NCBI GenBank assembly: GCA_964023205.1
Contig: OZ026841.1
Coordinates: 26,491,561 to 26,555,560 of the forward strand
From: Lutraria lutraria
Lineage: Eukaryota > Mollusca > Bivalvia > Venerida > Mactridae
Length of the DNA: 64,000 nucleotides
Direction: 5' to 3'
The translations under genes and the position numbers were made by a program. Under the pieces are notes generated by a model. The model saw only the letters and a list, made by a program, of their open reading frames with translations. It was not told the origin of the DNA and made no database searches. Positions 17,932-35,489 of this stretch are shown here, in pieces; position 1 is the first letter of the stretch, and the number at the start of each line of letters is the position of its first letter.

Positions 17932-18222
17932 AGTAGTGTAAGGCGGTACCCTGGTACCAATGCCTTCTGGTACCAATGCCTTCTGGTACCCATACCTCCT
18001 GGTACCATATAGAATATAGAGTAAATAGATTAAGGTCGGTACCAGAAGTTTTACAAAATGGGGACAAATTGTGACAAATGAGGACAAATTGTGACAAATG
18101 AGGACAAATTGTGACAAATTGGAAATCAAAAAATAATTTTAGGAATGTTCTGTGTGTGTATAGACTTAGACAATGAGAGAATTTTCTTTCGAAAAGACAT
18201 GGTGGCCCTGAAAAGGGCCGTT
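17932..18222 (+). repeat. Polinton left terminal inverted repeat
   Basis: About 291 bp matching the right end inverted. The outer part is three to four 16-bp units TGGTACCAATGCCTTC with GGTACC at each joint. The middle has GAGGACAAATTGTGACAAAT units, three here against one at the right end. The inner end holds a histone-type stem-loop on the minus strand. The outer 130 bp look identical between ends. Confidence 0.95.
18204..18219 (-). terminator. Histone-type 3' stem-loop A (in left TIR)
   Basis: Minus strand GGCCCTTTTCAGGGCC: six-base stem, four-base TTTC loop, preceded by CAAC and followed by ACCA. Thirteen nt after the ACCA-side stem comes CGAAAGAAAAT (18191-18181), resembling the U7-binding histone downstream element. 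It is the second of two stem-loops behind the gene that stops at 18282. Confidence 0.8.
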
Positions 18223-18232
18223 GGTGGTTGGT

Positions 18233-18248
18233 GGCCCTGAAAAGGGCC
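18233..18248 (-). terminator. Histone-type 3' stem-loop B
   Basis: Same GGCCCTTTTCAGGGCC hairpin with CAAC before and ACCA after, 33 nt beyond the stop of the minus-strand gene ending at 18282, within the spacing usual for replication-dependent histone mRNAs. Stem-loop A follows 13 nt further on, so this looks like a local duplication. Confidence 0.8.
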
Positions 18249-18281
18249 GTTGGTCATGGTTGGTAGCTGTTAGTCGGATCT

Positions 18282-19013
18282 TCATTTCTTTATTTCTTTA
18301 CCATACTTGCCCCGAGGTTGTTTCTCAAGATCATGTTTTCGTTTCTTCGTTTCTGTCATCTCCGGTTTCTTTTTGTCATGCTCCGGTTTCTTTTTCTCAT
18401 GCTCATGCTTTCGTTTCTTTGAATCATACATAAACTGTACAGGTACAATCATTTCTTGTGGCTTAAACCGTACTTCTTGATTTTTCATGAGTCTGACCAT
18501 CTCTTGCATGACTTGATTCATCTGTACCATTTCTTCCTTGATACCTTGTAGAACAGACAATCCCGTTGTAGGCTTTGTAATTGTATTAGACTGTGTTTTC
18601 GCCATAGGGGGCTGTGTATTCGTCATAGTGGGTTGTACATCTACCATAGGCTGTGTATTCGTCATAGTGGGTTGTATAGGCTGTGTATTCGTCATAGTGG
18701 GTTGTACATCTACCATAGGCTGTGTATTCGTCATAGTGGGTTGTACATCTACCATGGGTTGTATCGGCTGTACATCTACCATGGGGGGTTGTACATCTAC
18801 CATGGACTGTTGACTGTATTGGCTGTACAGTGGTTGACTGTATTGGCTGTACTGTGGCTGCCTATACTGTAGTTGACCGTACTTTGGCTGGTTGTACTTC
18901 GGCTGGTTGTAATGCATACCCGCATTCGGGTCTATTAACTCAGATGATTCTAGTGCTTCTCTCAATATATCGTATGGCATGTTGAAGGAATCCATGCTAG
19001 ATAATGAAAACAT
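18282..19013 (-). CDS. Polinton accessory protein with MVDVQP/TMTNTQP repeats and basic tail
   Basis: 243 residues from the ATG at 19013; a second ATG at 18995 is equally plausible, because a TATAAATA at 19032-19039 lies so close that transcription may begin near 19010. After a short N-terminus come Q/Y-rich repeats (YNQPKYGQLQYRQPQYSQ), then tandem PMVDVQP and TMTNTQP units, a helical stretch (LQGIKEEMVQMNQVMQEMVR), and a charged tail with KKRKHEHEKKKPEHDKKKPE that could act as nuclear localisation or nucleic-acid binding. Function not recognised; low complexity suggests a disordered scaffold. The gene faces outward and ends in two histone-type stem-loops. A TCAAGGTCA site lies 59 bp upstream. 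Confidence 0.78.
   Translation of the reverse strand: MFSLSSMDSFNMPYDILREALESSELIDPNAGMHYNQPKYNQPKYGQLQYRQPQYSQYSQPLYSQYSQQSMVDVQPPMVDVQPIQPMVDVQPTMTNTQPMVDVQPTMTNTQPIQPTMTNTQPMVDVQPTMTNTQPPMAKTQSNTITKPTTGLSVLQGIKEEMVQMNQVMQEMVRLMKNQEVRFKPQEMIVPVQFMYDSKKRKHEHEKKKPEHDKKKPEMTETKKRKHDLEKQPRGKYGKEIKK
18600..18810. repeat. In-gene tandem repeats
   Basis: Units such as GGTTGTACATCTACCATAGG and CTGTGTATTCGTCATAGTGG alternate five to six times inside the minus-strand gene, encoding its MVDVQP and TMTNTQP repeats. Copy number is likely variable. Confidence 0.85.
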
Positions 19014-19031
19014 AGTGTCTGCGCCGGGGGT

Positions 19032-19039
19032 ATTTATAC
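19032..19039 (-). promoter_or_regulatory. TATA box for the leftmost Polinton gene
   Basis: Minus strand TATAAATA, 19 nt before the ATG at 19013 and 37 nt before the one at 18995. The closeness favours a very short leader or use of the second ATG. Confidence 0.6.
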
Positions 19040-19071
19040 TTTTTGCCTGCACGCGCCAGTGTTCTATTAGG

Positions 19072-19184
19072 TCAAGGTCAATTGTGAGAAGTTTTTTTGA
19101 ATACGTGTGACACTTCAAGTTTTTTAAAAATAAGTGTGACACTTCAAGTTTTTTTTTGAACAAGTGTTTGACACGTCAAGGTCA
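19072..19184 (+). promoter_or_regulatory. Two TCAAGGTCA nuclear-receptor half-sites
   Basis: Exact TCAAGGTCA at 19072-19080 and 19176-19184, upstream of the minus-strand gene starting at 19013. This 9-mer is the extended half-site bound by monomeric receptors such as FTZ-F1/NR5A and ERR. Five more exact copies occur elsewhere in the element. Confidence 0.5.
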
Positions 19185-19199
19185 AGGTTATATTGTAGA

Positions 19200-19545
19200 T
19201 ATGCTTTGTACACATTATACTATCACAGCAATTTGAACACTGTACACTTAATACTATCACAGCAATTTGAATACTGTACACATTATACTATCACAGCACT
19301 TTGCAGACTGTACACTTAATACTATCACAGCAATTTGCAGACTGTACACTTAATACTATCACAGCAATTTGAATACTGTACACTTAATACTATCACAGCA
19401 ATTTGAATACTGTACACATTATACTATCACAGCACTTTGCAGACTGTACACTTAATACTATCACAGCAATTTGAATACTGTACACTTCATACTATCACAG
19501 CACTTTGCAGACTGTACATCATACTATCACAGCAATTTGAACACT
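19200..19545. repeat. 34-bp tandem repeat, about ten units
   Basis: Units of the form TGTACACTTAATACTATCAC followed by AGCAATTTGAATAC repeat with a regular 34-bp period, with two sub-variants (TTAATAC or ATTATAC; AATTTGAA or CTTTGCAG). Sequence 19546-19690 carries a further diverged duplication (CATTTGTTGAAAATGATTGT twice). No gene in this interval. Confidence 0.85.
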
Positions 19546-19809
19546 GTATACATTTGTTGAAAATGATTGTACATCACATACTAACACTTATATTTGTGGG
19601 GGAAATACTTTGTTCTTCATACAATCACAGCACTTTGTATACATTTGTTGAAAATGATTGTACACATCATACTATCACTTATATTTGTAGGAAATGTTTA
19701 TAGAAAACTTACCTCACACCGTATATTTGTATTTGGTGTTATCAGATAGGACTGTAAATATACTAGTAATATTGACAATATGAGAATGATTCTTTCTGAA
19801 TTGTATGGG

Positions 19810-19825
19810 GGCCCTGAAAAGGGCC
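19810..19825 (-). terminator. Histone-type 3' stem-loop C
   Basis: Minus strand GGCCCTTTTCAGGGCC, preceded by CAAC and followed by CCCAT. CAGAAAGAATC follows about 13 nt later (around 19798-19789), again like a histone downstream element. Second of a pair behind the gene stopping at 19867. Confidence 0.78.
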
Positions 19826-19831
19826 GTTGGT

Positions 19832-19847
19832 GGTCCTGAAAAGGACC
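19832..19847 (-). terminator. Histone-type 3' stem-loop D
   Basis: Minus strand GGTCCTTTTCAGGACC with CAAC before and ACCA after, 19 nt past the stop codon of the gene ending at 19867. Compared with stem-loop C one base pair is exchanged on both strands of the stem (C-G to T-A), a compensatory change that supports selection on structure. Confidence 0.82.
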
Positions 19848-19866
19848 GTTGGTGCTTGTATGGGGA

Positions 19867-20190
19867 TTAATGGCGTTGACCGCATCTCCCCATACAAGCG
19901 GGACACCACTTGTCCCATTTCTGGACATCCTTGGGGTCCGGTGTGGGTTGGTAGAGGTTCGACGGAACCTCTATTAACTCATCTTCCCAGTTCTCTGGGG
20001 TTGATTCTTGAGGGGTATCCCCCCAGTCCTCTTCCCCAGAGCTGACCACGACCTCCTCTACAAACTGCTTTCCCTCTCTCAGGGTCTTGACCTCTAGCCT
20101 CAGCTCTTCTAGCTGCATTTCCAGCTGCTCTATATACCGCCCTAAGGCAGCATATTTTCTTTTGATAATATTGACTGTTCTCTGTGACAT
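19867..20190 (-). CDS. Small Polinton coiled-coil protein with CxxC tail
   Basis: 107 residues. Residues about 8-42 form a heptad-type coiled coil (YAALGRYIEQLEMQLEELRL), followed by an acidic linker (SSGEEDWGDTPQESTPENWE) and a C-terminal WCPACMGRCGQRH with closely spaced cysteines that might bind metal. No family recognised. It shares a 200-bp divergent promoter region with the plus-strand gene at 20393; that region carries four CCAAT boxes reading toward this gene. Its 3' end has two histone-type stem-loops instead of AATAAA. Confidence 0.72.
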   Translation of the reverse strand: MSQRTVNIIKRKYAALGRYIEQLEMQLEELRLEVKTLREGKQFVEEVVVSSGEEDWGDTPQESTPENWEDELIEVPSNLYQPTPDPKDVQKWDKWCPACMGRCGQRH

Positions 20191-20254
20191 CTTGATACAG
20201 AATGAAATTAGATCAAGGCAAGGTCACTGACTCTCATATGATACAAGGACTCTG

Positions 20255-20331
20255 ATTGGTCCATTTTAACGGTATTTCATTGGTCCATTTTAACGGTATT
20301 TCATTGGTCTATTTTACTGGCATTTCATTGG
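20255..20331 (-). promoter_or_regulatory. Four CCAAT boxes at exact 24-bp spacing
   Basis: ATTGG at 20255, 20279, 20303 and 20327, in units like GGTCCATTTTAACGGTATTT. On the minus strand the proximal one reads GGACCAATCAGAG, 65 bp before the ATG at 20190. It lies between two divergent genes that both end in histone-type stem-loops. Confidence 0.65.
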
Positions 20332-20392
20332 TCTGTTCTAGGTCAGTGTTTTTTTTCGTGTTCCATAGCTCATTTATGTTTCATGATTCAAC

Positions 20393-20620
20393 ATGGGCAA
20401 CTGCTTGAAAAGTTCTTCTGATGAACCTGATGAGTTACAAGAAGATGTTTGGGTGGTCAAGATGGGTAATTTGTACCCAGACTTGTCTGAATTCCAAGAT
20501 GTTAGTATTGTCAAGATGGATGTCAAGATGGGTAATTTATACCCTGACCTTTCCGTCTTTTATGATGAGGATTTGAGAGCCAACTATTGGCGATACCTAT
20601 TTCTTGCAGAAATGCAATGA
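20393..20620 (+). CDS. Small protein with predicted N-myristoylation/palmitoylation signal
   Basis: 75 residues starting MGNCLKSSS. Gly2 with Ser/Lys at positions 6-7 fits the N-myristoyltransferase consensus, and Cys4 would be a natural palmitoylation site, as in Src-family kinases and many viral membrane-targeted proteins. The rest is acidic with a duplicated VKMGNLYPDLS segment (residues about 22-34 and 45-57) and no TM segment. Inferred to be anchored on the inner face of membranes; role unknown. The stop is followed 10 nt later by a histone-type stem-loop. Confidence 0.7.
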   Translation: MGNCLKSSSDEPDELQEDVWVVKMGNLYPDLSEFQDVSIVKMDVKMGNLYPDLSVFYDEDLRANYWRYLFLAEMQ

Positions 20621-20630
20621 ATTACCCAAC

Positions 20631-20646
20631 GGCCCTTATTAGGGCC
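20631..20646 (+). terminator. Histone-type 3' stem-loop E
   Basis: GGCCCTTATTAGGGCC with CAAC before and ACCA after, 10 nt after the stop at 20620. The loop is TATT rather than TTTC. A purine-rich CAAGCAAAGACAAAAG lies 29 nt downstream, a weaker and more distant downstream-element candidate than in the other copies. Confidence 0.72.
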
Positions 20647-20711
20647 ACCATATGTGTTAGATTCGATTTATATCTCAAGCAAAGACAAAAGCATATTACA
20701 TTGTCTATCAT

Positions 20712-20717
20712 TTTATT
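20712..20717 (-). terminator. AATAAA signal of the zinc-knuckle gene
   Basis: Minus strand AATAAA about 120 nt beyond the stop at 20838. ACAAAGTACAAC-type short repeats lie between (20738-20770). This gene uses a conventional poly(A) signal, unlike its neighbours. Confidence 0.6.
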
Positions 20718-20837
20718 TTTGAAAACATTTATAAAGTACAACAAAGTACAACAAAGTACAACACAATACAACTCACTTAGTCTCCAATTTAAGTCTATAC
20801 ACAATTGTCCAACACATTGTCCAACACATTGTCTGGA

Positions 20838-21188
20838 TTACACAAAGTCACTCACAGTTTTTGTTGGATTCTTTTTGTATTTACGTTTTTTCTTACTCTG
20901 TTCTGCGTCCTGTAGATCGACCTGTTCACCTTGTTTCTTAGGACAGTCTGCGATGAAATGTCCTTGTTCATGACAATAAAAACATTCATTGTTGAAGGGT
21001 TCCGTACAGCTGGTAGAATAATGTCCTTTCTTTCCACAACGATAACACTTGATATGATCCCATGTTACATTTTTCTGTCCACAGAGCTGATCCGCTAAGT
21101 TGTTAAGCTCTTTAATTTTCTTCTTTAATGAATACATCAAAGTTTGATCTCGGTTCTCTTCAACTTGGTTCATTTTAGGATCGCTCAT
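20838..21188 (-). CDS. Polinton protein with two CCHC zinc knuckles
   Basis: 116 residues. Two retroviral-type knuckles CX2CX4HX4C: C48/C51/H56/C61 (CYRCGKKGHYSTSC) and C69/C72/H77/C82 (CFYCHEQGHFIADC). Before them is a short coiled coil (YSLKKKIKELNNLADQL), after them a basic tail KKKRKYKKN. Such knuckles bind single-stranded nucleic acid, as in Gag nucleocapsid and CNBP; a role as ssDNA-binding protein for protein-primed replication is possible but inferred. A TATAAAAG on the minus strand at 21222-21229 gives it a clear promoter, back to back with the polymerase. Confidence 0.85.
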   Translation of the reverse strand: MSDPKMNQVEENRDQTLMYSLKKKIKELNNLADQLCGQKNVTWDHIKCYRCGKKGHYSTSCTEPFNNECFYCHEQGHFIADCPKKQGEQVDLQDAEQSKKKRKYKKNPTKTVSDFV

Positions 21189-21221
21189 GTTGAAATGATA
21201 AAAAACGGACGGAGCGTACGT

Positions 21222-21229
21222 CTTTTATA
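21222..21229 (-). promoter_or_regulatory. TATA box of the zinc-knuckle gene
   Basis: Minus strand CTATAAAAG, 34 nt before the ATG at 21188, a standard distance. A TGACCTTGA (reverse of TCAAGGTCA) lies at 21245-21253 in the same divergent promoter region. Confidence 0.65.
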
Positions 21230-21349
21230 GAGTGTCACGCGTTGTGACCTTGAACCCGAACTATAAACAGTACTAGTGGTGAGGATGAACCTCCAACTAA
21301 ACGAAGTAAGGTTGAGCCTGTGCGCGACTATTATGACATACAGTCACGC

Positions 21350-24300
21350 ATGGAAAGAAAGTCAAGGAAATTTAAGACTCAATCCAAAGTATATGATGTG
21401 ACATTTCAATCGTATAATCAATCGTTTGAATTTACAAACAGGTTGTTTAATGATATGATGGATCAGCTCTACAAGAGATGTGAAGTGAGATCAAATGATC
21501 GAGTTCGAGTATCTATTCTACATCCTGATTTGGACTTTGGAATACATGTTCCGTTTAATAGGGCATCTCTTATTAGTGGAGATACATTGTTGGATGAAAT
21601 TGAACGTGTGGCACAAAGTAACCGTCAATTTAAAATTCATGATGGGGCGACACAGATGGAAATTACGCATATTGCTATGCCACAGGGATCCGGAAAGAAA
21701 ACGTTTAAAGCACCAAACTTATTCAGTATGCGAAAGTCAAAGACAAGTGTTGTGTGTATTGACAATAGTAAGGACTCTATGTGTTTAGCTAGATCGATTG
21801 TAGTGGGACAGTGTAAAGTGGATGAAAATCAAACCCCGCAATGGAAAAAACGATGGAATTATATACGCCAGTCTAAGAAAAAACTTCAAAAATACGAAGC
21901 TGAAGCATTATTAAAGCAAGTGGGTATTTCATCGGATCAGTCGTGTGGTATAGAAGAATACCAAAAACTACAGGACTATATCTATCCCAGCTATGTGATT
22001 AAAATCCATCCACAACATTATGGAAGTGAATTGTTATTCAAACCACCTGCTCTGACTGAAAAAAGTCGTGTGATTCATATCTTTCACCATGATAATCATT
22101 ATGACTGTATCGTATCCATTACCGGATTTCTCGGAAGGAGTTATTATTGTGAATGGTGTGATGTCGGTTATGATCACCGTGAAGGACACCAGTGTAGACA
22201 TATTTGTCAGTGTTATGCTCACACCCTGTGCCCAGCAGGACAATCTATAAGATGTCCGGATTGTCGTCGCCTATTCCAGAGTCAGGCATGTTTTGACAAT
22301 CATAAAACAAAAACGGGAAAACAACGTAAAACCATTTGTGAATCCGTATGGAATTGTAAGAAATGTGGACAAAAGGTGATTGAAACGAAACGGAATCACG
22401 TTTGCCCAGGGACAAAGAAATGTAGGTGTTGTAAAGCCATAGTAGGACCAGATCATGACTGTTACATTCCAACGTATGAACCACCCAATAGAAAACAACC
22501 AGAAGTACCATTCATCTTTTTTGATTTTGAATGTCGTTTTGATTCTGGAGAACATATCCCTAATTTTTGTGTGGCTCAACGTGCTTGTGGTGACTGTATG
22601 TGTAAGTCAGTGAAAGCTCCATGTGAGTATTGTGAAGAGGTGAATGAAGCCAGACAAATGACATTCCGTGGTGAAAATACGTTACAACAATTCTGTACTT
22701 GGCTATTCCTCCCTACCCATCGAGGATCGACAGTGATAGCCCACAATGCTCAAGGCTATGACGCTCAGTTTATTCTTAGATATGTGGTCACTCAGGGGAC
22801 GGCGAAACCCCAGTTGATTATGAATGGTAGTAAAATCATTCAATTGAGAGTGCATGGAATACGCATGATTGACTCCCTCAGTTTCCTGAGTATGCCTCTC
22901 TCCTATTTTCCCAATACATTTGGACTGACCGAGTTAGCCAAAGGATGGTTTCCATTCTATGCAAACACCTTGGCGTATCAAGATTATGTGGGACCTTATT
23001 TGCCGCTACACTTTTACAAACCGGATAGTATGAAACCAGAGCGACGTGAAGAGTTTTTAACCTGGTACAATGAAAGAAAAGGTGACGTATTTGATTTTCA
23101 AAAGGAAATGGAGAAATACTGTCAATCGGATGTGGACATTTTAAGACGCGGCTGTGGAGAATTTCGTCAACAATTATTGGACAGTGATCAAATAGATCCA
23201 TTTACTGAAGCTACAACGTTAGCTCAAGTGTGTAACAAAGCCTGGCGCAAAAATTCCATGCCACCTCATAGTTTAGCCGTGATTTCGGATGCCGGGTATC
23301 CCAATAAAACCCGGTATTCCATGAAAGGCATACGTTGGCTACAAATGATGGCTGTCACCGAAGAGATACATATTCGGCATGCCTTGAATAACAAAGGCGA
23401 AGTCAAAATTGGACCTTATTACGTGGATGGCTATTGTCAAGAGACCAACACCGTGTATGAATTCATGGGATGTTGGTACCATGGATGCCCCACCTGTTTT
23501 CCTAACCGAAGTACCATCAATCCATATACTTTGAGAACCATGCAACAGGCCTATCACGATACGTATAAACGACTGGAGTCTTTGAAAGAACAGGGGTATC
23601 CTGTTGTGGTCATGTGGGAATGTGAATTTGATCAGCGTTGTCAAAAGGATCCTGCCTATAAGACAAGAGTGGAACGATTCTATCATGGTCAAGGCCCGAT
23701 TCAACCCAGGGAAGCTTTGTTCGGAGGTCGTACGAATGCCGTCCGACTGTATCATGAAGTAGACAACGACCAAGAAATCAAATATGTGGATATTTGTTCT
23801 CTCTATCCGTATGTGAACAAGTACAGGGCTTATCCGATAGGTCATCCAGTGATCATGAGTCAAGAACAAATTGATCAACAGCATATTGAGAAATACAAAG
23901 GACTGATTAAATGTCGTGTTCTACCCCCGCAAGATTTATGGATGCCTGTCTTACCCATACACTGTAATAGTAAAATGGTGTTTACGCTATGCCGTACCTG
24001 TGCTGAGAAGGAGATGGATTATTGTACACATTCCCCGTATGAACGATTCTTGTATGGCACATGGACTCATGTTGAATTGGCTAAAGCTATTGCTTTAGGC
24101 TATCAAGTATCAAAAGTGTATCATGTATGGCACTGGGATGAATGGAGTACGGACGTCTATCGGCAATACATTGACAAATACTTGAAAATGAAACAAGAGG
24201 CTAGTGGATATCCTCCAGGGGTGGATACGGAAGAGGCTCAAGATAAATTTAAACAAGATTATTTTGAAGCAGAAGGAATTCGTTTGCAACAGGTGGAGAA

Positions 24301-25045
24301 AAATCCAGGAAAACGAGCTTTTGCCAAAACCATGCTGAATTGTCTCTGGGGCAAAAATGCTCAAACCAACCTCTTGCCTAAAACAGAGTATGTTCATCGA
24401 TTGGACCAGTTCTACGGAATACTGAACGATCCTAAAAAGTCTGTGAAATATGTAGAGTGTTTTGATCATGATGAATTCATGTTAATGAATTATACTGATG
24501 AATCGGACAAAGCAGACCCTCATTCATCAGCCAATCCTGTGGTGGCTTCATTTGTGACGGCTTATGCTCGATTAGAACTGTACAAAGTGCTTGAACCTCT
24601 AGGAAAGAGAGTACTGTATTTTGACACAGACAGTTGTATGTACATTCACGACCCTGATGGCTATAATGTTCCTATTATCTCCAGTCGATTGGGAAAATGG
24701 ACAGATGAGGTACCAAAGGGTCGTATTGTGAGATATGTCGCTTTAGGTCCAAAGAACTATGGCTATGAATACATTGAAAACGGTGAACTCCATCAAAAAT
24801 GCAAAGTGAAAGGCATTACGTTAGACTACAATGCCACTCAACAAGTGAATTTCAATACGATGGTGGATTGTGTGAAAGACAGACATAATTATTCGACCGT
24901 AGTTGAATATGCTTCTCGGATTAAACGTCATAAGGACAGAACCGTGACCAGTGAGAAACAAGTCAAAACATTTCGTTCGGTATATACCAAACGTATTGTG
25001 GTCGAGAATCATATGACTGTGCCTTATGGTTATCTACATGACTGA
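21350..25045 (+). CDS. Protein-primed family B DNA polymerase (Polinton PolB)
   Basis: Replicates the element from its termini in the nucleus. About 1231 residues from the ATG at 21350. The N-terminal 260 residues may hold the terminal-protein part. A cysteine/histidine-rich zone follows (CEWCDVGYDHREGHQC to CRCCKAIVGPDHDC). Exonuclease motifs: FFDFECRF near residue 392, HNAQGYDAQFIL near 468, YCQSDVDIL near 590. Polymerase motifs: DICSLYPYVN near 813, KTMLNCLWGKN near 993, YFDTDSCMY near 1091, and KVKG downstream. All catalytic acids are present, so the enzyme looks intact. The frame stays open about 75 nt upstream of this ATG with a basic PPTKRSKVEP stretch but no ATG, so the true start may be non-AUG or lost. 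Confidence 0.96.
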   Translation: MERKSRKFKTQSKVYDVTFQSYNQSFEFTNRLFNDMMDQLYKRCEVRSNDRVRVSILHPDLDFGIHVPFNRASLISGDTLLDEIERVAQSNRQFKIHDGATQMEITHIAMPQGSGKKTFKAPNLFSMRKSKTSVVCIDNSKDSMCLARSIVVGQCKVDENQTPQWKKRWNYIRQSKKKLQKYEAEALLKQVGISSDQSCGIEEYQKLQDYIYPSYVIKIHPQHYGSELLFKPPALTEKSRVIHIFHHDNHYDCIVSITGFLGRSYYCEWCDVGYDHREGHQCRHICQCYAHTLCPAGQSIRCPDCRRLFQSQACFDNHKTKTGKQRKTICESVWNCKKCGQKVIETKRNHVCPGTKKCRCCKAIVGPDHDCYIPTYEPPNRKQPEVPFIFFDFECRFDSGEHIPNFCVAQRACGDCMCKSVKAPCEYCEEVNEARQMTFRGENTLQQFCTWLFLPTHRGSTVIAHNAQGYDAQFILRYVVTQGTAKPQLIMNGSKIIQLRVHGIRMIDSLSFLSMPLSYFPNTFGLTELAKGWFPFYANTLAYQDYVGPYLPLHFYKPDSMKPERREEFLTWYNERKGDVFDFQKEMEKYCQSDVDILRRGCGEFRQQLLDSDQIDPFTEATTLAQVCNKAWRKNSMPPHSLAVISDAGYPNKTRYSMKGIRWLQMMAVTEEIHIRHALNNKGEVKIGPYYVDGYCQETNTVYEFMGCWYHGCPTCFPNRSTINPYTLRTMQQAYHDTYKRLESLKEQGYPVVVMWECEFDQRCQKDPAYKTRVERFYHGQGPIQPREALFGGRTNAVRLYHEVDNDQEIKYVDICSLYPYVNKYRAYPIGHPVIMSQEQIDQQHIEKYKGLIKCRVLPPQDLWMPVLPIHCNSKMVFTLCRTCAEKEMDYCTHSPYERFLYGTWTHVELAKAIALGYQVSKVYHVWHWDEWSTDVYRQYIDKYLKMKQEASGYPPGVDTEEAQDKFKQDYFEAEGIRLQQVEKNPGKRAFAKTMLNCLWGKNAQTNLLPKTEYVHRLDQFYGILNDPKKSVKYVECFDHDEFMLMNYTDESDKADPHSSANPVVASFVTAYARLELYKVLEPLGKRVLYFDTDSCMYIHDPDGYNVPIISSRLGKWTDEVPKGRIVRYVALGPKNYGYEYIENGELHQKCKVKGITLDYNATQQVNFNTMVDCVKDRHNYSTVVEYASRIKRHKDRTVTSEKQVKTFRSVYTKRIVVENHMTVPYGYLHD

Positions 25046-25051
25046 CCTTGA
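25043..25051 (-). promoter_or_regulatory. TCAAGGTCA site between polymerase and next gene
   Basis: TGACCTTGA overlapping the polymerase stop codon, 12 bp before the ATG at 25063. Reverse complement of the nuclear-receptor half-site found repeatedly in this element. Confidence 0.35.
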
Positions 25052-25062
25052 CCTTTTAGGTA

Positions 25063-26332: not shown

Positions 26333-26344
26333 ACTTGTTACACA

Positions 26345-26354: not shown

Positions 26355-26394
26355 ATGTTTTTCTTCCAATAGTGTTAGTTGTGATTTTCACGTC

Positions 26395-27041
26395 ATGGAG
26401 TCCAGTTTACTTTTTAAGCATCCTTGCAATATGTTTATCTCAGGCCCTAGTGGCTCTGGTAAAACACAATTTGTAAAAAAGGTGTTGGAATACAAATCAG
26501 ATTTGTTTCAAGTAGTACCAGAGCGTATTGTATGGTGTTACAAAGAATGGCAAGTAGCCTATGCACAATTACAAGAACAAGAACCTAGTATTCGGTTCAT
26601 ACAGGGGATACCTGACGAGGATGAAGAGATAGTAGAGGATACATCCATTCCTCATTTAATTATATTTGATGACATGCTTGGTGATAAAGATGAAGAGAAA
26701 ATCAAATTATGCTTTACACGAAAAGGTCACCATCGTAATGCTAGTGTGATCTACATTACACAAAACATGTTTCAACAATCGAAAGCCAGTCGTACCCTGA
26801 GTTTAAATGCACATTACATGATCTTATTTCAAAACACAAGAGATAAAGGACAAATCAAGTGTTGGCGAATCAAATTCAATTGCCACACTTGTTACCCGCT
26901 TATCAAGATGCTATCTCTACACCTCATGGGTATTTAGTGATTGACTTTCACCCTCAAACACCAGACAGTTATCGGTTAAGAACAGATATTTTTCATCACT
27001 GGATCACTGGAGAAAAACGTGGGCCAGTTGTGTATATATAA
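26395..27041 (+). pseudogene. FtsK/HerA-type packaging ATPase, frameshifted
   Basis: The family drives DNA into the capsid. First frame runs 26395-26937. Walker A is GPSGSGKT at residues 17-24, Walker B LIIFDD at about 88-93, and a sensor-like ITQN at 121-124. Near nucleotide 26857 homology leaves this frame and continues in another, up to 27041 (ending DIFHHWITGEKRGPVVYI), while the original frame ends after about 28 unrelated residues. One base lost, or two gained, in the run around 26850-26860 would explain it. It is either an inactivating mutation or an assembly error. The catalytic part is intact; the lost part is the C-terminal quarter. An internal TATA box for the next gene overlaps its end. 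Confidence 0.85.
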
Positions 27042-27042: not shown

Positions 27043-27075
27043 CATCGTTTACTCATATAAGATCATTCAGTCATC

Positions 27076-28348: not shown

Positions 28349-28386
28349 AAGCTGTGAAGAAGTAAAAACAGGTATTATTTGACATA

Positions 28387-28758: not shown

Positions 28759-29585
28759 AGAAAATGGCTATCGTCCCGTTCAAAATGCTAGAAGAGATGA
28801 ATCGATGGAAAACAGAACAACGACCACGTTTACCTCCTCCCCCGCAAGTCAGTCAAACATCCGATTTACAGAAACAAATGGGAGACGTATTACAAAATGA
28901 ATCGTTGTCTGAATCAGAAAAAGCACAACACTATGGGCAAGTCTTGCAAAAGTTTCAACTGTCTCATCAAAAAGCACGTGAACCGGCTACTCTGGCTGCA
29001 CCAGTTACACCGGGTGCACCGGTTGTTCCAGCTGCTCAAGGTGCACAAGGGGCACAAGCGGCTCCTGCTACATTGACGGATCGGATTCTTGAAAGTGTTC
29101 CTACTACTATGCGTCGAAAAACTCAGCTTTTATTACACTTTCTACAAAATCATCCCCACATGTCATGGAATGATCAAGGGATGTTGGAATACCATGGAAA
29201 ACCAATACAAGGATCCAACATTATTGATTTGGTCAATGATGTCATACGTCATAGAAAAGGGTCGGAGCCTAGAGGATGGGAACAGTTTTCTAGTGGACTA
29301 AGAGATGTCAATGTACCACAAGAAGTGATAGGAAATAAACGGAGATGGTCATGGATGCAAAAAGCAGACGATTCGGAGGAAGATGATGAATTCTTTGATA
29401 GTTTTGTTGAGCCTCGTTCACCTATAAGTAAACCTTCCAAACGGATGAAAGCAGAACCTATAAGTAAACCTGCCAAACGGATGAAAGCAGAACCTATAAG
29501 TAAACCTGCCAAACGGATGAAAGCAGAACCTATAAGTAAACCTGTCAAACAGATGAAAGCAGAACCTAAGTGGGAAGCCTACTAG
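28755..29585 (+). CDS. Polinton structural/accessory protein with KRMKAEP repeats
   Basis: 276 residues. A coiled-coil-like start (QKQMGDVLQNESLSESEKAQ), an Ala/Pro linker (APVTPGAPVVPAAQGAQGAQ), then a folded-looking domain at about 105-195 (RKTQLLLHFLQNHPHMSWND, YHGKPIQGSNIIDLVNDVIR, VNVPQEVIGNKRRW). This domain is a recurrent companion of Polintons, function unknown. The acidic patch SEEDDEFFDS precedes four copies of ISKPAKRMKAEP, each with an NLS-like KRMK. Position between core proteins and integrase suggests a virion or nuclear-delivery role. Confidence 0.75.
   Translation: MKKMAIVPFKMLEEMNRWKTEQRPRLPPPPQVSQTSDLQKQMGDVLQNESLSESEKAQHYGQVLQKFQLSHQKAREPATLAAPVTPGAPVVPAAQGAQGAQAAPATLTDRILESVPTTMRRKTQLLLHFLQNHPHMSWNDQGMLEYHGKPIQGSNIIDLVNDVIRHRKGSEPRGWEQFSSGLRDVNVPQEVIGNKRRWSWMQKADDSEEDDEFFDSFVEPRSPISKPSKRMKAEPISKPAKRMKAEPISKPAKRMKAEPISKPVKQMKAEPKWEAY
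29420..29568. repeat. 36-bp in-gene repeat, four copies
   Basis: AACCTATAAGTAAACCTGCC with AAACGGATGAAAGCAG repeats at a 36-bp period at the end of the gene, encoding ISKPAKRMKAEP. The last copy is diverged (VKQMKAEP). Confidence 0.85.
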
Positions 29586-29590
29586 ACAAC

Positions 29591-30664
29591 ATGAACAAAA
29601 AGGTAGACAGTCTGTTACATCAGATTTATTATGATCCCCACCATCCGGCTGGTTTTGGTGGGGTAGAACGTCTTACTACAGCAGCTCGAACTCAACTGAA
29701 ATCCATTACGCCAAGTCAAGTGCGATCCTGGTTGAAGGGGCAAAAGACCTATACCCTGCACAAACCTATCCGTAGGGTATTCTCGAGACGGAAAACGATT
29801 GTGGGTGGTATTGATCATCAATGGCAAGCTGATTTGGCAGACATGCAATCCCTGGCTCAGTACAACACCCCTTATCGATATTTGTTGTGTGTTATTGACG
29901 TGTTTTCAAAATATGCTTGGGTCGTTCCCCTCAAGGATAAAACGGGGCTCACATTGGTGGAAGCGTTTCGCTCTATTCTTAAAACGAGACAACCTAAAGC
30001 GTTGCAAACCGATAAAGGAACAGAATTCAAGAATCAAAGGTTTCAACAGTTTTTAGACAAAGTAGGGATTCATTATTTTACGACTGAAAACCCAGAAACG
30101 AAGGCTAGTATAGTGGAACGTTTTCAACGGACCTTAAAATCACGCATGTGGAAATACTTTACGCATCATAAAACACGAAGGTATATTCAGGTATTGTCTG
30201 ATCTCGTGCATGCCTATAATCATCGTGTTCATCGTAGTATACAAATGGCACCCGTATCCGTAAATGAGAATAACGAATCTCAAGTGGCCTTGACCTTGTA
30301 TGGAAAATCAAGAAAAAAAGCGTCGACGACCCTTCATGTGGGAGATATTGTTCGTATCAATAAAACAAAACGTACATTTGATAAAGGTTATCTACCCAAC
30401 TGGACCACTGAACTGTTTAAAGTGATCCAAGTCAAAAAGACCCCTCCTGCTACTGTGAAATTGACTGATTTAGACGGAGAACCCATTTTGGGTTCGTTTT
30501 ATTTCTCTGAAGTACAGGTTATAAAAGATGATGCTATCTATGAAATTGAATCAGTGCTCGCACATCGCCAGAGTAAGGTAGACGGAAGACGAGAAATTAA
30601 AGTACATTGGAAAGGTTATCCTTCGAAATTTGACAGTTGGATTCCCGAATCCCATCTCGTTTGA
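29591..30664 (+). CDS. Polinton DDE integrase with C-terminal chromodomain
   Basis: 357 residues from the ATG at 29591, 5 nt after the previous stop. Retroviral-type rve core: D81 in WQADLADM, D141 in TDKGTEF and E177 in IVERFQR, giving the D,D-35-E spacing of active integrases. An N-terminal helical zinc-less domain precedes the core. Residues about 315-357 (IYEIESVL, REIKVHWKGYPSKFDSWIPE) form a chromodomain with the aromatic cage positions Y/W/W, expected to bind methylated histone tails and steer insertion. Enzyme intact. It makes the 6-bp duplication seen at the element's borders. Confidence 0.95.
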   Translation: MNKKVDSLLHQIYYDPHHPAGFGGVERLTTAARTQLKSITPSQVRSWLKGQKTYTLHKPIRRVFSRRKTIVGGIDHQWQADLADMQSLAQYNTPYRYLLCVIDVFSKYAWVVPLKDKTGLTLVEAFRSILKTRQPKALQTDKGTEFKNQRFQQFLDKVGIHYFTTENPETKASIVERFQRTLKSRMWKYFTHHKTRRYIQVLSDLVHAYNHRVHRSIQMAPVSVNENNESQVALTLYGKSRKKASTTLHVGDIVRINKTKRTFDKGYLPNWTTELFKVIQVKKTPPATVKLTDLDGEPILGSFYFSEVQVIKDDAIYEIESVLAHRQSKVDGRREIKVHWKGYPSKFDSWIPESHLV

Positions 30665-30684
30665 AGTTTGTTAATAAATACATC

Positions 30685-30930
30685 ATGTCTCAAACCGATA
30701 CGGCCAGTGTGGTAGTGACTGCCTCAGAGCAAACCAAATTGTGTGAACCCAAAAATAAGGTCACTTTTTTGTCACAAATTGTAGTGGTATTTATCATTAT
30801 TACCGTATCGCTATTTAATTTGTGTTTTCAACGACCCGATCGAGAATTGTGGCTTCTGCTTTTAAGTAGTTCTCTAGGTTATATTCTACCGAATCCCTCC
30901 TTGAAATTCAATAAACCTAAATCAACATGA
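30685..30930 (+). CDS. Small Polinton membrane protein
   Basis: 81 residues from the ATG at 30685. Two hydrophobic segments: FLSQIVVVFIIITVSLFNLC and LWLLLLSSSLGYILP, separated by a short polar loop (FQRPDRE), followed by a basic tail (KFNKPKST). The sequence around ELWLLLLSSSLGYILPNP is typical of a small protein seen next to penton in other Polintons; its function is unknown. Stop overlaps the penton start as ATGA (30927-30930). Confidence 0.72.
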   Translation: MSQTDTASVVVTASEQTKLCEPKNKVTFLSQIVVVFIIITVSLFNLCFQRPDRELWLLLLSSSLGYILPNPSLKFNKPKST

Positions 30931-31769
30931 GTTCGTTTTACATAACACTCATGAGTGATAGCTCTATGGATTTATTCCAAGACAATACGCAATGTTGTTT
31001 TCGGACCAAACTGGCAAAACCCATCCATCTCAATAAACAAGACTGGGAAATTGCCTTAGTGGAAATGATTGTTCCTAGTCAGGTCATTAATGTCACTGAA
31101 GAAGAGCGACATTTCTACATTGTCACACATGATCCTGTCCTGGGTAAGGCCTTAGAAAACTTTGAGACCTATTGTACTCTCCCCAATAAAGAAGAAAAAG
31201 GTGTACGACTTTGTATTCCTATAGGAACTTATGTCACACCCCAACATTTGATCGAGACGATTGACTTTACCGTGAAAGATCAATTAGGTAAAATATTTAG
31301 ACAGAAAGGCCTTCGATTTACCATGGGTTTTTCAGGACAAAGTAAACGCGCAAAACTGGACAGTTCGGATCAACTAGGCATTCAGTTTCATCCTCACATG
31401 TTTATTAAACTGGGTGGAGCCCCTGATAGTTCTTCGACCATCTTTTTTAAAGACACTCCGGAACCGTTTCCTCATGGCGTAGATATTAACATGGGTCATA
31501 ATCATTTGTTTGTTTATTCCGACCTTGCGTCTTATACCTATTTGGGAAACATAGAAGCCCCCATCTTACGTGTAGCTCCATTTGATCCGAGAACGAAAGC
31601 AGGAACTAACCCTCATATTCATTTCGAGTTCTTGAATTTACACTATGTACCACTGGCTAAAGCCGACTTTGACACCATCACTATCCATATAAGGGGTGAC
31701 ACTGGCCAGTCTATTCAGTTTATTCATGGGAAGTCTATGGTGAAACTACACCTACGTCAAAGACAATGA
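30927..31769 (+). CDS. Polinton penton (minor capsid, single jelly-roll)
   Basis: 280 residues. The start SFYITLMSDSSMDLFQDNT and KPIHLNKQDWEIALVEM is the hallmark of Polinton/adintovirus penton proteins, which fill the five-fold vertices of the icosahedral capsid. The rest is beta-rich, with no TM segment. Length fits the family. Placed directly before a basic minor protein and the major capsid protein, with ATGA overlaps at both ends, so the capsid genes are probably expressed as one unit. Confidence 0.88.
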   Translation: MSSFYITLMSDSSMDLFQDNTQCCFRTKLAKPIHLNKQDWEIALVEMIVPSQVINVTEEERHFYIVTHDPVLGKALENFETYCTLPNKEEKGVRLCIPIGTYVTPQHLIETIDFTVKDQLGKIFRQKGLRFTMGFSGQSKRAKLDSSDQLGIQFHPHMFIKLGGAPDSSSTIFFKDTPEPFPHGVDINMGHNHLFVYSDLASYTYLGNIEAPILRVAPFDPRTKAGTNPHIHFEFLNLHYVPLAKADFDTITIHIRGDTGQSIQFIHGKSMVKLHLRQRQ

Positions 31770-32131
31770 TACCTACTTACCAAGGTCAACCTCGACAATA
31801 TGGACACGGACTTGGATCCATGTTTAAGAAAGCCATGAAAAGAATTATGCCTTTACTGAATCCATTTGTGAAATCTGGAGTTCGCACCTTGAAAAAAGAA
31901 GGACTCCAGCAAGGAAAAGCCGCTATGAAAGATATCTTGACAGGATCAAACGTTAAACAAGTAATACGAAAACGTGGAGCCTCTGTGTTAAAAGATGTGG
32001 GTGAATCCTTGCTACATGCCGTGGCCAGCCCTAAAAGACGTATAAAGAGCAAACCAGTCAAGAAAAGACCTCATTCGAAACTTCATCATCGCCGAGTTAA
32101 GCAGGCCAGACCTCTTGATATTTTCGATTAA
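31766..32131 (+). CDS. Basic Polinton minor virion protein
   Basis: 121 residues. Glycine-rich start (QYGHGLGSMFKKAMKRIMPL), an amphipathic helix pair (SGVRTLKKEGLQQGKAAMKD), and a strongly basic C-terminal half (SPKRRIKSKPVKKRPHSKLH). It resembles in layout the membrane-lytic/core proteins of adenoviruses (pVI/pX type) and their adintovirus counterparts; that match is by composition and position rather than clear sequence identity. Starts in the penton stop codon (ATGA) and ends 2 nt before the major capsid ATG. Confidence 0.75.
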   Translation: MIPTYQGQPRQYGHGLGSMFKKAMKRIMPLLNPFVKSGVRTLKKEGLQQGKAAMKDILTGSNVKQVIRKRGASVLKDVGESLLHAVASPKRRIKSKPVKKRPHSKLHHRRVKQARPLDIFD

Positions 32132-32133
32132 TC

Positions 32134-33432
32134 ATGATGCAACACGGTTCCTGTGAATGTAGTAAGACAGAGTTGGATGTGTCTGTTGTGCCACCTACCA
32201 TGACAGCCATGCAAGAAGGTCAATGGACTGAGCATTATCCCATTTCTGCCCTGGACAATAATGCTCCGATTGAATTTGTGATTCCTGCACAGACAGAAAA
32301 ATGGACAGATCTGAATCAATCTTACCTGTACCTAAAACTCAAAATTATACAGTCAGATGGTACAGACCTAGCGGCCGACAGTGAAATTGCTACCGTCAAC
32401 AATTTCTTTCACAGCATGTTCTCAAGCATTGATGTGTATCTGAATAATAAACTGATCACCAGCAATGCGGACACGTATGGCTATCGGGCATACATAGAAA
32501 ATTTACTCTCCTTCACCTCAAGCTGTAAAGACACTCAGCTTCAGGCGCTAGAGTTATGGGCTGAAGACACCGCTGGTCATATGCTCGAAAAAGTACATGA
32601 CGGGAATAACAAGGGCTATGGTAAGAGACGTGCTCGTGTCCATCAAAGTTGTGTGGTGGAACTATGTGGACGGCTTCATTTGGATCTGATGATGCAAGAT
32701 AAATATTTACCCAATGGTATGGAAATACGCTTAAGACTAAACAAAGCGTCACCTCAATTCTGTCTCATGAGTACTTCACCGGCTAAAATCAAGTTTCTAG
32801 AAGCAGGATTTAATGTAAGAACAGTAGATTTACTGCCAGTGGTAGCCAATCAACTCAATCAACAGATTGCTCAACATAACATGAAAATCCCCATCCGACG
32901 AACTGAAGTAAAAACATTTACGATTCCTAACGGTCAACGATCCAAGATTGAAGATCATTTATTTCAAGGTCAATTGCCAAAACGTCTTATCATCGGTATG
33001 GTAAGAAATGGAGACATGAATGGAGACATGGCTACCAACCCCTTTGAGTTCCGTCATTTTACACTGAATCATCTAGAAGTCAGCATTGACGGAAAAAGTA
33101 TTCATAACAAAGCGTTTCAACCCAATTTTGAAACGGGAGAAGTTCTAAGATCCTACATGTCACTCTATCAAGCGACAGGAGCTCTTGGTCTCAATCGTTC
33201 ATTTGGATTGAGCATGAATGATTATCGGAACGGATACACACTCTGGGGGTTGGACTTGACAGCAGATCAAGGTTGCGAGGAAGGTCAACTCCATCCTATA
33301 AAAACGGGCAATCTGAGATTGGAATTTCACTTTGGAACAGCACTTGCACAAGCCATCAACGTGATTGTATTTGCGGAATACGACAATCAAATTGAAATCA
33401 ATCAATTCAGAGAAGTGCTTCTAGATTATTAG
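32134..33432 (+). CDS. Polinton major capsid protein (double jelly-roll)
   Basis: 432 residues, the usual size for the hexon-like major capsid protein of Polintons. Recognisable features: NNAPIEFVIPAQTEKWTDLN and SYLYLKLKI in the first beta-sandwich, NNFFHSMFSSIDVYLNNKLI, then EIRLRLNKASPQFCLM, and near the C-terminus FEFRHFTLNHLEVSIDGKSI and GNLRLEFHFG. Trimers would give pseudo-hexameric capsomers. The frame is intact. An adjacent penton, ATPase and protease support virion formation in this lineage. Confidence 0.92.
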   Translation: MMQHGSCECSKTELDVSVVPPTMTAMQEGQWTEHYPISALDNNAPIEFVIPAQTEKWTDLNQSYLYLKLKIIQSDGTDLAADSEIATVNNFFHSMFSSIDVYLNNKLITSNADTYGYRAYIENLLSFTSSCKDTQLQALELWAEDTAGHMLEKVHDGNNKGYGKRRARVHQSCVVELCGRLHLDLMMQDKYLPNGMEIRLRLNKASPQFCLMSTSPAKIKFLEAGFNVRTVDLLPVVANQLNQQIAQHNMKIPIRRTEVKTFTIPNGQRSKIEDHLFQGQLPKRLIIGMVRNGDMNGDMATNPFEFRHFTLNHLEVSIDGKSIHNKAFQPNFETGEVLRSYMSLYQATGALGLNRSFGLSMNDYRNGYTLWGLDLTADQGCEEGQLHPIKTGNLRLEFHFGTALAQAINVIVFAEYDNQIEINQFREVLLDY

Positions 33433-33441
33433 ATTATTAAG

Positions 33442-33906
33442 ATGGAAGACATGGATATTGAACACCTGGAAAAAGGACAAGATTACGAAATGAAGTTATT
33501 GGCGTATCCGTGTTGTACAAGTTCAAAGACGGACTTTTTACAAGAGTGCTTGAATCATCACGTCACAGAAGCACTCCAATCTTTAATTTATAATCAAGTG
33601 CATAAAGACTGTTATGGTTGTCGAGTGAATCATCCTAGTCAAGTACAACATGTACTCTGCTTATACACGAATACGGAAGAGTGGACAGAACTTTACATTC
33701 AAAAAGCGATTCAACGTTTGGACGTGTTCAAGGTCATGGAAAAGTGGTATCCTGAATTAGTGACCTTGACCGATAGTGAAAAAGGAGACGCGTGTCGATT
33801 ATGGATTCAGTTTAAAGAAGAACTCACTCAGAATCAGTTCATTGATCAGTGGATCAGTGTTTGGGCTGAACGTGTCAACAGAAATTGGCATTATGGAGAC
33901 GAATGA
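33442..33906 (+). CDS. Polinton protein with possible zinc-binding Cys/His cluster
   Basis: 154 residues, 9 nt after the capsid stop. Contains YPCCTSS near residue 22 and a CYGCRVNHPSQVQHVLCLY cluster around 57-75 (C, C, H, H, C) that could bind zinc. The remainder is helical (WTELYIQKAIQRLDVFKVME). A recurrent neighbour of the protease in Polintons but of unknown function; no confident family. Overlaps the protease start by 14 nt. Two exact TCAAGGTCA-type sites lie in it (33728, 33761). Confidence 0.7.
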   Translation: MEDMDIEHLEKGQDYEMKLLAYPCCTSSKTDFLQECLNHHVTEALQSLIYNQVHKDCYGCRVNHPSQVQHVLCLYTNTEEWTELYIQKAIQRLDVFKVMEKWYPELVTLTDSEKGDACRLWIQFKEELTQNQFIDQWISVWAERVNRNWHYGDE

Positions 33907-34483
33907 ACTACAATACCTATTAGATCATTCACCGTTATTAAAACCACTACGTGCACGTGTTTGTGCTAAAGATCAATTACCTTCAGAGAAACCGCATGAC
34001 GTGAAAGCCTATATTGTGAATACCCATAACGGGAATCAACCTGGAGAACACTGGGTGGCTCTTTATTTAAAAGACAATAAAGCAGTGTATTTTGATTCCT
34101 ACGGATTACCTCCTTTCGAAGAGATTCTATCCTTTGTGAAAAAACATGCCAACAAAACTTATCTGTGGAATGCCATGAGAATACAAGGCGATATGTTACC
34201 GGTGTGTGGTGTGTATTGTCTATTCGCTTTGGATTTTATCTCACGTGAATGTGACTTGAACCAGATACTGTTAACCCGATTCAAACCGGACATGTATGGA
34301 AAAAATGACACTTATGTGACGCATTGGTTTCAACAATATTATGGTACTTATTACATGCATGCTCAATATGTGAATAAATGTGGACAAAAGTGTTGTGCTC
34401 AACGTAACTCTAGACCAGAAGGTCACAGACGTTTGTATCATAGTATCATACATAGAAATACAACTCTTTATGGTGATCATTAA
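33893..34483 (+). CDS. Adenovirus-type cysteine protease (C5/Ulp1 fold)
   Basis: 196 residues from the ATG at 33893. Catalytic set visible: H53 in GEHWVALYL, D68 in YFDSYGLPP, Q98 in MRIQGD and C105 in PVCGVYCLF. In adenoviruses this enzyme matures capsid and core precursors; Polintons keep it beside the capsid genes. Length fits the family. Intact. Followed by AATAAA at 34551, which closes the structural gene block. Confidence 0.92.
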   Translation: METNELQYLLDHSPLLKPLRARVCAKDQLPSEKPHDVKAYIVNTHNGNQPGEHWVALYLKDNKAVYFDSYGLPPFEEILSFVKKHANKTYLWNAMRIQGDMLPVCGVYCLFALDFISRECDLNQILLTRFKPDMYGKNDTYVTHWFQQYYGTYYMHAQYVNKCGQKCCAQRNSRPEGHRRLYHSIIHRNTTLYGDH

Positions 34484-34550
34484 ATGTAAACAATGTTACT
34501 GTTTCATAAAATGTTTCATGTAGTTTCTTGTTACTGTTTCTTGTTACAAA

Positions 34551-34556
34551 AATAAA
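34551..34556 (+). terminator. Poly(A) signal after the protease
   Basis: AATAAA 67 nt past the stop at 34483, in an AT-rich stretch. It marks the end of the late-type block and contrasts with the next gene, which ends in a histone-type stem-loop. Confidence 0.6.
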
Positions 34557-34637
34557 AGTTTAGAAAAACTGAAACTAGGTGTCTGTTGTCTTTTTTCTAA
34601 GTTCATAAAAATCAAGCTCCGCACATGCATCGGCGCG

Positions 34638-34690
34638 TGACGCCATCCAACCCTAGGGTGACGTCATCCAAGCAATATGACGTCATCCAA
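34638..34690 (+). promoter_or_regulatory. Three CRE-like repeats upstream of the last Polinton gene
   Basis: TGACGCCATCCAA at 34638, TGACGTCATCCAA at 34659 and again at 34678, spaced 21 and 19 bp, ending 29 bp before the ATG at 34720. TGACGTCA is the palindromic site of CREB/ATF factors; about two-turn spacing fits cooperative binding. Confidence 0.65.
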
Positions 34691-34719
34691 CCACGAGAGT
34701 GGGCCATACAATACTTACA

Positions 34720-35196
34720 ATGCCTCATTTCATTCTGAGAACTCAAACACTCAAGATGGAGGCTTTATTCAATGAACTCAAAACAGCAAAACAACTGACT
34801 GAAAAACAGAGCAGGGTATGGCGTTCAATCAGTCGCTTAGCGGCTAGCATTGTTAGAAAAAGGGAACGTGATCTTCAATTCATTGGTGAGACTTTGAATA
34901 CCATTGAAACCAATCGATTTCATCATAGAGAAGAATTATCTCAAATGCGAGAGCAATTTCGAGATCAAGTCAGAGAAAGGCAGCGAGATGCTCGGGAACG
35001 AACGGCGAATAGACAACGGGAACAACAACAAGAAGAAGAGCATTGGCGTATCATCACTACCGCTCAAGTTGAGTACACGGAACAACCACCAGTACCAGAA
35101 CAGGAATGGTCCTGTGGGGATCCAACATGCAGGCTCTGCTATCCCCCACCAGACTGCCAATGCGAACTATGTACCCAACCAGATCAGTCAGCATAG
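34720..35196 (+). CDS. Rightmost Polinton accessory protein: coiled coil plus cysteine cluster
   Basis: 158 residues from the ATG at 34720 (an ATG at 34756 is also possible). Residues about 20-60 are helical (SRVWRSISRLAASIVRKRER). Residues 65-108 form a highly charged coiled coil (REELSQMREQFRDQVRERQR). The C-terminus has six cysteines (C132, C137, C140, C146, C148, C151) in SCGDPTCRLCYPPPDCQCEL, likely a small zinc module. Not recognised. It faces outward and its stop lies 12 nt from a histone-type stem-loop in the right terminal repeat. Layout (coiled coil then Cys tail) echoes the minus-strand gene at 19867-20190. Confidence 0.75.
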   Translation: MPHFILRTQTLKMEALFNELKTAKQLTEKQSRVWRSISRLAASIVRKRERDLQFIGETLNTIETNRFHHREELSQMREQFRDQVRERQRDARERTANRQREQQQEEEHWRIITTAQVEYTEQPPVPEQEWSCGDPTCRLCYPPPDCQCELCTQPDQSA

Positions 35197-35204
35197 ACAA
35201 CTAT

Positions 35205-35489
35205 CAACGGTCCTTTTCAGGGCCACCATGTCTTTTCGAAAGAAAATTCTCTCATTGTCTAAGTCTATACAGTACAAATAACAAAACACACACACACACA
35301 GAACATTCCTAAAATTATTTTTTGATTTCCAATTTGTCCTCATTTGTCACAATTTGTCCCCATTTTGTAAAACTTCTGGTACCGACCTTAATCTATTTAC
35401 TCTATATTCTATATGGTACCAGGAGGTATGGGTACCAGAAGGCATTGGTACCAGAAGGCATTGGTACCAGGGTACCGCCTTACACTACT
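35205..35489 (-). repeat. Polinton right terminal inverted repeat
   Basis: About 285 bp, inverted copy of the left end. It differs by fewer GACAAATTGT units, a longer GT run near 35290-35300 with a short extra stretch, and a G-to-A change in the stem-loop (GGTCCT for GGCCCT). The gene ending at 35196 runs straight into it. Confidence 0.95.
35209..35224 (+). terminator. Histone-type 3' stem-loop F (in right TIR)
   Basis: GGTCCTTTTCAGGGCC (one G-T pair) with CAAC before and ACCA after, 12 nt after the stop at 35196. CGAAAGAAAATTC follows at 35237-35249, 12-13 nt beyond the stem, matching the position and make-up of a histone downstream element. It is the inverted counterpart of stem-loop A. 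Confidence 0.83.

Follow-up and report, generated by a model that had tools for sequence, protein, structure and literature searches.

Histone-type stem-loops at the 3' ends of four genes of a Polinton from the bivalve Lutraria lutraria

Organization of the element

The stretch of DNA analysed here (the window) comprises 64,000 nucleotides of the genome of the bivalve Lutraria lutraria (contig OZ026841.1, forward strand, positions 26,491,561 to 26,555,560). It contains, between inverted repeats, an element of about 17.6 kb, which is a Polinton/Maverick, a relative of the adintoviruses. Its type-B DNA polymerase, rve integrase, A32-like packaging ATPase, terminal inverted repeats (TIRs) and size are those of a Polinton, whereas histone-type gene ends, such as those described below for four of its genes (A to D), have not been described for Polintons in the literature found. 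The TIRs and the four genes are listed below, together with the ratio of nonsynonymous to synonymous polymorphism (pN/pS) in distinct uninterrupted copies.

17910..18230 (no strand): left TIR, detected arms; three arm pairs, 89-96% identical to 35198-35511
35198..35511 (no strand): right TIR, detected arms, pairing with the left arms
18282..19013 (-): gene A, 243 amino acids (aa), reading outwards to the left terminus; pN/pS 0.26, 14 copies
19867..20190 (-): gene B, 107 aa; pN/pS 0.12, 14 copies
20393..20620 (+): gene C, 75 aa, in divergent orientation to gene B; pN/pS 0.31, 15 copies
34720..35196 (+): gene D, 158 aa, reading outwards to the right terminus; pN/pS 0.34, 18 copies

The TIR arms at 18157-18230 and 35198-35271 are 96% identical. 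All four genes are under purifying selection; the values for the control genes of the element, which are introduced below, range from 0.21 to 0.51. None of the four matched a histone family in Pfam: gene A gave no match, and genes B, C and D gave weak matches below the cut-off.

Stem-loops and downstream elements in the window

Replication-dependent histone mRNAs of metazoans carry a 3' stem-loop recognized by the stem-loop-binding protein (SLBP), and a downstream element recognized by the U7 small nuclear ribonucleoprotein (snRNP); they are cut and not polyadenylated, in a pathway that is active in S phase (PMC9756948, PMC5011920). The initial annotation of this DNA had reported six hairpins of this type past genes A to D. 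All six were found again, as matches to GGYCCTTTTCAGGRCC (at most two mismatches) that lie in sense, 10-62 nt past the stop codons. These hairpins and the purine-rich elements beyond them are as follows.

18233..18248 (-): gene A stem-loop, 33 nt past the stop; RF00032 28.0 bits
18204..18219 (-): second gene A stem-loop, 62 nt past the stop, within the TIR; RF00032 35.8 bits
18184..18190 (-): GAAAGAA, candidate U7 site from its sequence, 13 nt past the gene A stem
19832..19847 (-): gene B stem-loop, pair 3 being T-A, 19 nt past the stop; RF00032 16.0 bits
19810..19825 (-): gene B stem-loop, pair 3 being C-G, 41 nt past the stop; RF00032 32.1 bits
19790..19796 (-): GAAAGAA, candidate U7 site from its sequence, 13 nt past the gene B stem
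20631..20646 (+): gene C stem-loop with a TATT loop, 10 nt past the stop; RF00032 30.7 bits
20676..20685 (+): CAAGCAAAGA, possible downstream element, 29 nt past the gene C stem, an unusual distance
35209..35224 (+): gene D stem-loop with T.G at pair 3, 12 nt past the stop, within the TIR; RF00032 27.4 bits
35238..35244 (+): GAAAGAA, candidate U7 site from its sequence and TIR copy of 18184-18190, 13 nt past the gene D stem

Dinucleotide shuffling of the window (100 shuffles) gave a mean of 0.02 matches, and six were reached in none. The Rfam Histone3 model (RF00032) matched every one of the six hairpins at E<=10, with the scores given above. The flanking sequences likewise agreed with the annotation, with CAAC on the 5' side in all six cases and ACCA on the 3' side in five, as did the GAAAGAA element of genes A, B and D. 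The compensatory change that had been noted between two stem-loops is also present, since those at 19810 and 19832 differ by C-G to T-A at one pair. As in metazoan replication-dependent histone mRNAs (RF00032), a six-base stem (GG..CC) is combined with a four-base, T-rich loop and with AAC and mostly ACCA flanks.

It should be noted that the hairpins at 18204(-) and 35209(+), together with their GAAAGAA elements, are two copies of one TIR sequence. The 3' ends of genes A and D therefore do not count separately, and the idea of four independent 3' untranslated regions (UTRs) had to be given up in favour of three independent kinds. Genes B and C, which lie inside the element, are separate cases of a hairpin end. 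In alignments inspected by eye, the motif TTGTC was also common to all four genes, 11-15 nt past the purine element: 18169-18174(-), 19774-19779(-), 20701-20705(+) and 35255-35259(+).

Comparison with the host histone genes

The histone family PF00125 gave 47 matches in the host genome, most of them in a cluster at C6:24.99-25.10 Mb. Three host genes, which we take from their C-termini to be H3, H2B and H2A, each hold AACGGCCCTTTTTAGGGCCAC at their ends, with RF00032 scores of 33.8, 31.7 and 31.9 bits respectively, just below the cut-off. The stem and the AAC flank are identical in these three genes and in the Polinton, and the host histone 16-mer itself occurs in one copy of the Polinton (L097). 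As regards the downstream element, host H2A has GAAAG 13 nt past the stem, the same spacing as in genes A, B and D; host H3 has AGAGAC at this position, and H2B is without such an element. For bivalve histone genes, the palindrome has been reported, in some of them with a purine-rich element at varying distance (PMC6210712).

The host genome also contains a tandem array (L031-L033; G000:C12:22874000-22893999 and 22908000-22917999) of units of about 1.5 kb with an open reading frame (ORF) of 109 aa (MPSRIQSLDK...). In these loci, 20 histone-like hairpins, GGCCCTTTTCAGAGCC, with one mismatched pair, were found; 19 of them lie 39-40 nt past the ORF and one at the edge of the locus. The 109-aa protein had no Pfam match and, compared with the products of genes B and D, no meaningful similarity. 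Judged by its sequence, the array appears to consist of host genes that are not histones but have 3' ends resembling those of histone genes.

Sister copies in the host genome

The window belongs to a host assembly of 728.5 Mb. In an RF00032 scan that scored 75 of 131,090 candidates, 44 matches had E<=1e-3, and 37 of these exceeded the cut-off. Five of the 44 fall in the tandem array on contig C12, and the other 39 in 37 Polinton end pieces, 17 with gene A and 20 with gene D. These end pieces belong to 26 sister elements; both ends, separated by about 17 kb, were recovered for 11 of them and a single end for 15. Many of the sister-copy hairpins score 38.7 bits and one scores 41.6, higher than the host histone genes.

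The comparison of gene ends covered the window as well as these 37 pieces, a stem-loop being counted if it had at least five of six pairs and lay at most 114 nt from the stop. A stem-loop was present in every copy that retained the C-terminus: 18/18 for gene A, 18/18 for gene B, 18/18 for gene C and 20/20 for gene D (21 copies of gene D were matched, and L047 was left out as being without the C-terminus, although two hairpins are present there). The other genes of the element gave 0/17 (zinc-knuckle), 0/21 (protease-like), 0/19 (capsid-type) and 1/19 (ORF154), the single ORF154 hairpin, GGCGCGTGTTTGTGCC, being taken as chance. Hairpins past the orthologous genes are thus retained in related elements of the same genome, as the initial annotation would predict.

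Finding the end pieces through their hairpins introduces a bias into the gene A and gene D counts, and a sample chosen by the capsid-type gene was therefore also considered. The probe for the capsid-type protein gave 474 candidates; all of the 97 scored were at least 99% identical, and 96 had no internal stop. In 20 of these 97 copies, none of them among the 37 end pieces, a hairpin followed gene D in 18. The remaining two (L094 and L103) had neither the hairpin nor the C-terminal word of gene D in the 351-base slice, the end being missing or missed. A Polinton family with this many capsid-type genes (at least 97, identity 99-100%) has undergone a very recent and large expansion.

Tandem double hairpins follow the same gene in many copies, and three are present in L100 and L104. 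Such doubling and tripling would suit a strong terminator, and genes A and D read outwards, with hairpins in the TIRs. The gene ends might therefore be histone-type and processed and yet serve something other than S-phase timing, namely the translation or storage, by germ cells or early embryos, of mRNA without poly(A), or a stop of transcription before the termini of the element. The hairpins of genes B and C, however, are inside the element, and we consider such a benefit unlikely.

Shape of the hairpins and their variation

A strict scan of 183 kb, in which six of six pairs were required, found 125 stem-loops, while 20 simulations of the scan gave a mean of 1.3 and 5 at most; together with the shuffles of the window, this rules out a chance origin of the hairpins. 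The great majority (118) lie in sense within 110 nt past gene A (32), B (35), C (17) or D (34). The other seven are two in L047, four of the form GGGGTGTCTTCACCCC and the one of ORF154, the last five being taken as chance. The 5' flank is AAC in 120/125 and the 3' flank ACCA in 97/125. At pair 3-14, C-G was found 78 times (one being the ORF154 match), T-A 41 times, G-C four times (the chance ones) and T.G twice. Conservation is higher in the hairpin columns than elsewhere in the 150-nt 3' UTR (A, 0.920 against 0.838; B, 0.974 against 0.814; C, 0.995 against 0.907; D, 0.903 against 0.829), which is mild evidence, given the gapped alignments, the young copies and, for gene D, an alignment that includes the L047 row without a usable end.

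These data also bear on the suggestion that the hairpins act as DNA, as signals for TIR replication, packaging or integration, and merely resemble histone ends. Two of the six hairpins in the window do lie in the TIRs, but others are at genes B and C, far from them; the orientation and place of the 118 stem-loops, their AAC and mostly ACCA flanks, and a spacing of the downstream GAAAG equal to that of host H2A all argue against such a role, which we regard as very unlikely.

Polyadenylation signals and the other genes

The remaining principal genes of the element, two of which served as controls with a polyadenylation signal, are given below.

20838..21188 (-): zinc-knuckle gene, control; PF00098, E=3.9e-08; AATAAA 120 nt past the stop
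21350..25045 (+): type-B DNA polymerase; PF03175, E=1.9e-38
26395..26937 (+): A32-like packaging ATPase; PF04665, E=7.3e-08
29591..30664 (+): rve integrase with chromodomain; PF00665, E=3.5e-12, and PF00385, E=1.4e-07
32134..33432 (+): capsid-type gene, 432 aa
33893..34483 (+): protease-like gene, control; PF00770, E=0.044, below the cut-off; AATAAA 67 nt past the stop

The label "capsid" comes from the initial annotation and from gene order and size, with no search match behind it: the gene had no Pfam match above the cut-off, no PHROG match and no solved relative.

The signal AWTAAA was scored within 250 nt past the stop. Across the copies it was found in 0/18 for gene A, 0/18 for gene B, 0/18 for gene C and 2/20 for gene D, and in 17/17 for the zinc-knuckle gene, 20/21 for the protease-like gene, 19/19 for ORF154 and 0/19 for the capsid-type gene. 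In the window, AATAAA is present past the zinc-knuckle, protease-like and integrase genes and some small ORFs. The statement of the initial annotation that the polymerase, capsid and zinc-knuckle genes have AATAAA thus holds for the zinc-knuckle gene and has to be corrected for the other two, past which no AWTAAA was present within that distance. Genes A to D resemble metazoan histone genes in this respect too: the hairpin comes soon past the stop, GAAAG follows 13 nt beyond it in three genes, and AWTAAA is nearly absent. They are unlike them in being non-histone genes by Pfam, in belonging to a mobile element and in having hairpins that are often doubled.

Two further explanations can be judged at this point. 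Hairpins at gene ends of small DNA viruses are known from mimivirus and its virophage Sputnik, where the hairpin marks giant-virus polyadenylation (PMC6723459). If the Polinton hairpins were polyadenylation signals of this kind, they would be read by a helper virus; yet their stem and 5' flank are those of the host histone genes, and AATAAA serves other genes of the Polinton, which makes this explanation extremely improbable. Alternatively, the hairpins might be captured histone-gene debris, or chance, with no role, the transcripts being polyadenylated further downstream. The AWTAAA past two of the 20 gene D copies would fit this, as would the fact that some human histone genes also yield polyadenylated mRNA (PMC9756948). 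However, chance is excluded by the shuffles and simulations, and three separate types of 3' UTR carry the hairpin, with changes that keep the pairing, which makes this origin extremely improbable.

Proposed mechanism

The histone-type 3' ends of genes A to D are well supported from sequence, and this part of the initial interpretation stands; for the transcripts of these genes we infer the other part, namely binding by SLBP and U7, lack of poly(A) and limitation to S phase. Genes A, B and D have the sequence parts of the pathway, and gene C has only the stem-loop. Genes A to D probably give rise to histone-type, non-polyadenylated mRNAs through the SLBP/U7 processing of the host. The Polinton would then have two kinds of transcription unit, an ordinary polyadenylated one (zinc-knuckle, protease-like and some other genes) and one with a histone-type 3' end, comprising A and D, each directed outwards at one terminus, together with the divergent genes B and C close to the left end. 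Host SLBP would bind the hairpin of the A to D transcripts, and U7 snRNP at the purine-rich element would guide the histone cleavage complex to cut a few nucleotides past the hairpin. The transcripts would stay without poly(A) and, as is known for this pathway, would be produced and stable chiefly during S phase, while the host DNA is copied. If this is true, Polintons have acquired a simple way to tie their expression to host DNA replication, and RNA libraries selected for poly(A) would miss the transcripts of genes A to D.

Several observations weigh against this proposal. The RF00032 gathering score of 34 is reached by one of the six window hairpins, and gene C is without a purine-rich element at a distance of 13 nt. 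The loop of the host histone genes is TTTT against mostly TTTC in the Polinton, and their 3' flanks are ACAA, ACTC and ACTA against mostly ACCA. The capsid-type and polymerase genes are likewise without a near AWTAAA, so that its absence alone proves little. A U7 small nuclear RNA was sought in the host: there was no RF00066 match, in a search whose control likewise matched nowhere, and a pattern search gave 14 matches (reversed control, 11), of which none had a U7-like match in Rfam. Finally, the sister copies are young, and conservation within the family is limited evidence.

To the best of our knowledge of the literature found, the novelty claimed by the initial annotation stands, apart from a bare count of Rfam histone 3' UTR stem-loop hits (n = 6) in a collection of Polinton-like viruses and virophages (PMC12220804). 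These hits are of the RF00032 type and come from related elements; the section that reports them gives no place, gene or function, and they are not in the cryptophyte elements of that study.

The regions upstream of the genes were compared as well. Within 300 nt, host H3 has five CCAAT boxes, H2B one and H2A two (for H2A, counted from an ATG that lies 47 nt upstream of the actual start). The intergenic stretch between genes B and C has four CCAAT boxes, and its likeness to the host histone promoters is a hint only. A histone-like promoter was dropped as firm evidence, because the B/C boxes all belong to a single 24-nt tandem repeat, no box occurs within 300 nt upstream of gene A or D, and the ATPase and protease-like genes have two and one respectively. 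A wider version of the proposal is less probable, though quite possible: genes A to D might pose as histone genes at both ends, with the stem-loop and downstream element as their 3' end and, in the case of B and C, a CCAAT repeat promoter like that of host H3, and be co-transcribed and co-processed with the histones only during DNA copying, while the 109-aa array would suggest a wider class of non-histone genes with histone-type 3' ends in this animal lineage, which the mobile element has joined.

Other observations

Upstream of gene D, three repeats resembling the cyclic AMP response element (TGACGTCA or near) are present at 34620-34700, and half sites of the CAAGGTCA type occur at 19020-21290 and 33500-33900, upstream of genes A, B and C and of the zinc-knuckle, polymerase and protease-like genes. 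Residues 690-779 of the polymerase (21350-25045) weakly match an endonuclease family in PHROG. Three protein probes and four DNA patterns found no relative of the element among the viral contigs; a single pattern match obtained there with each of two protein probes was not confirmed by tblastn.

Elsewhere in the window, an ORF of 432 aa at 10748-12046 has a Mab-21 match below the cut-off (E=0.0012) and is possibly, we presume, a cGAS-like receptor. A transposase-type helix-turn-helix ORF lies at 42089-42319, next to an ORF (41852-42076) that we take to be Tc1/mariner-like, and a reverse-transcriptase ORF (RVT_1, E=6.1e-32) occupies 52632-55631.

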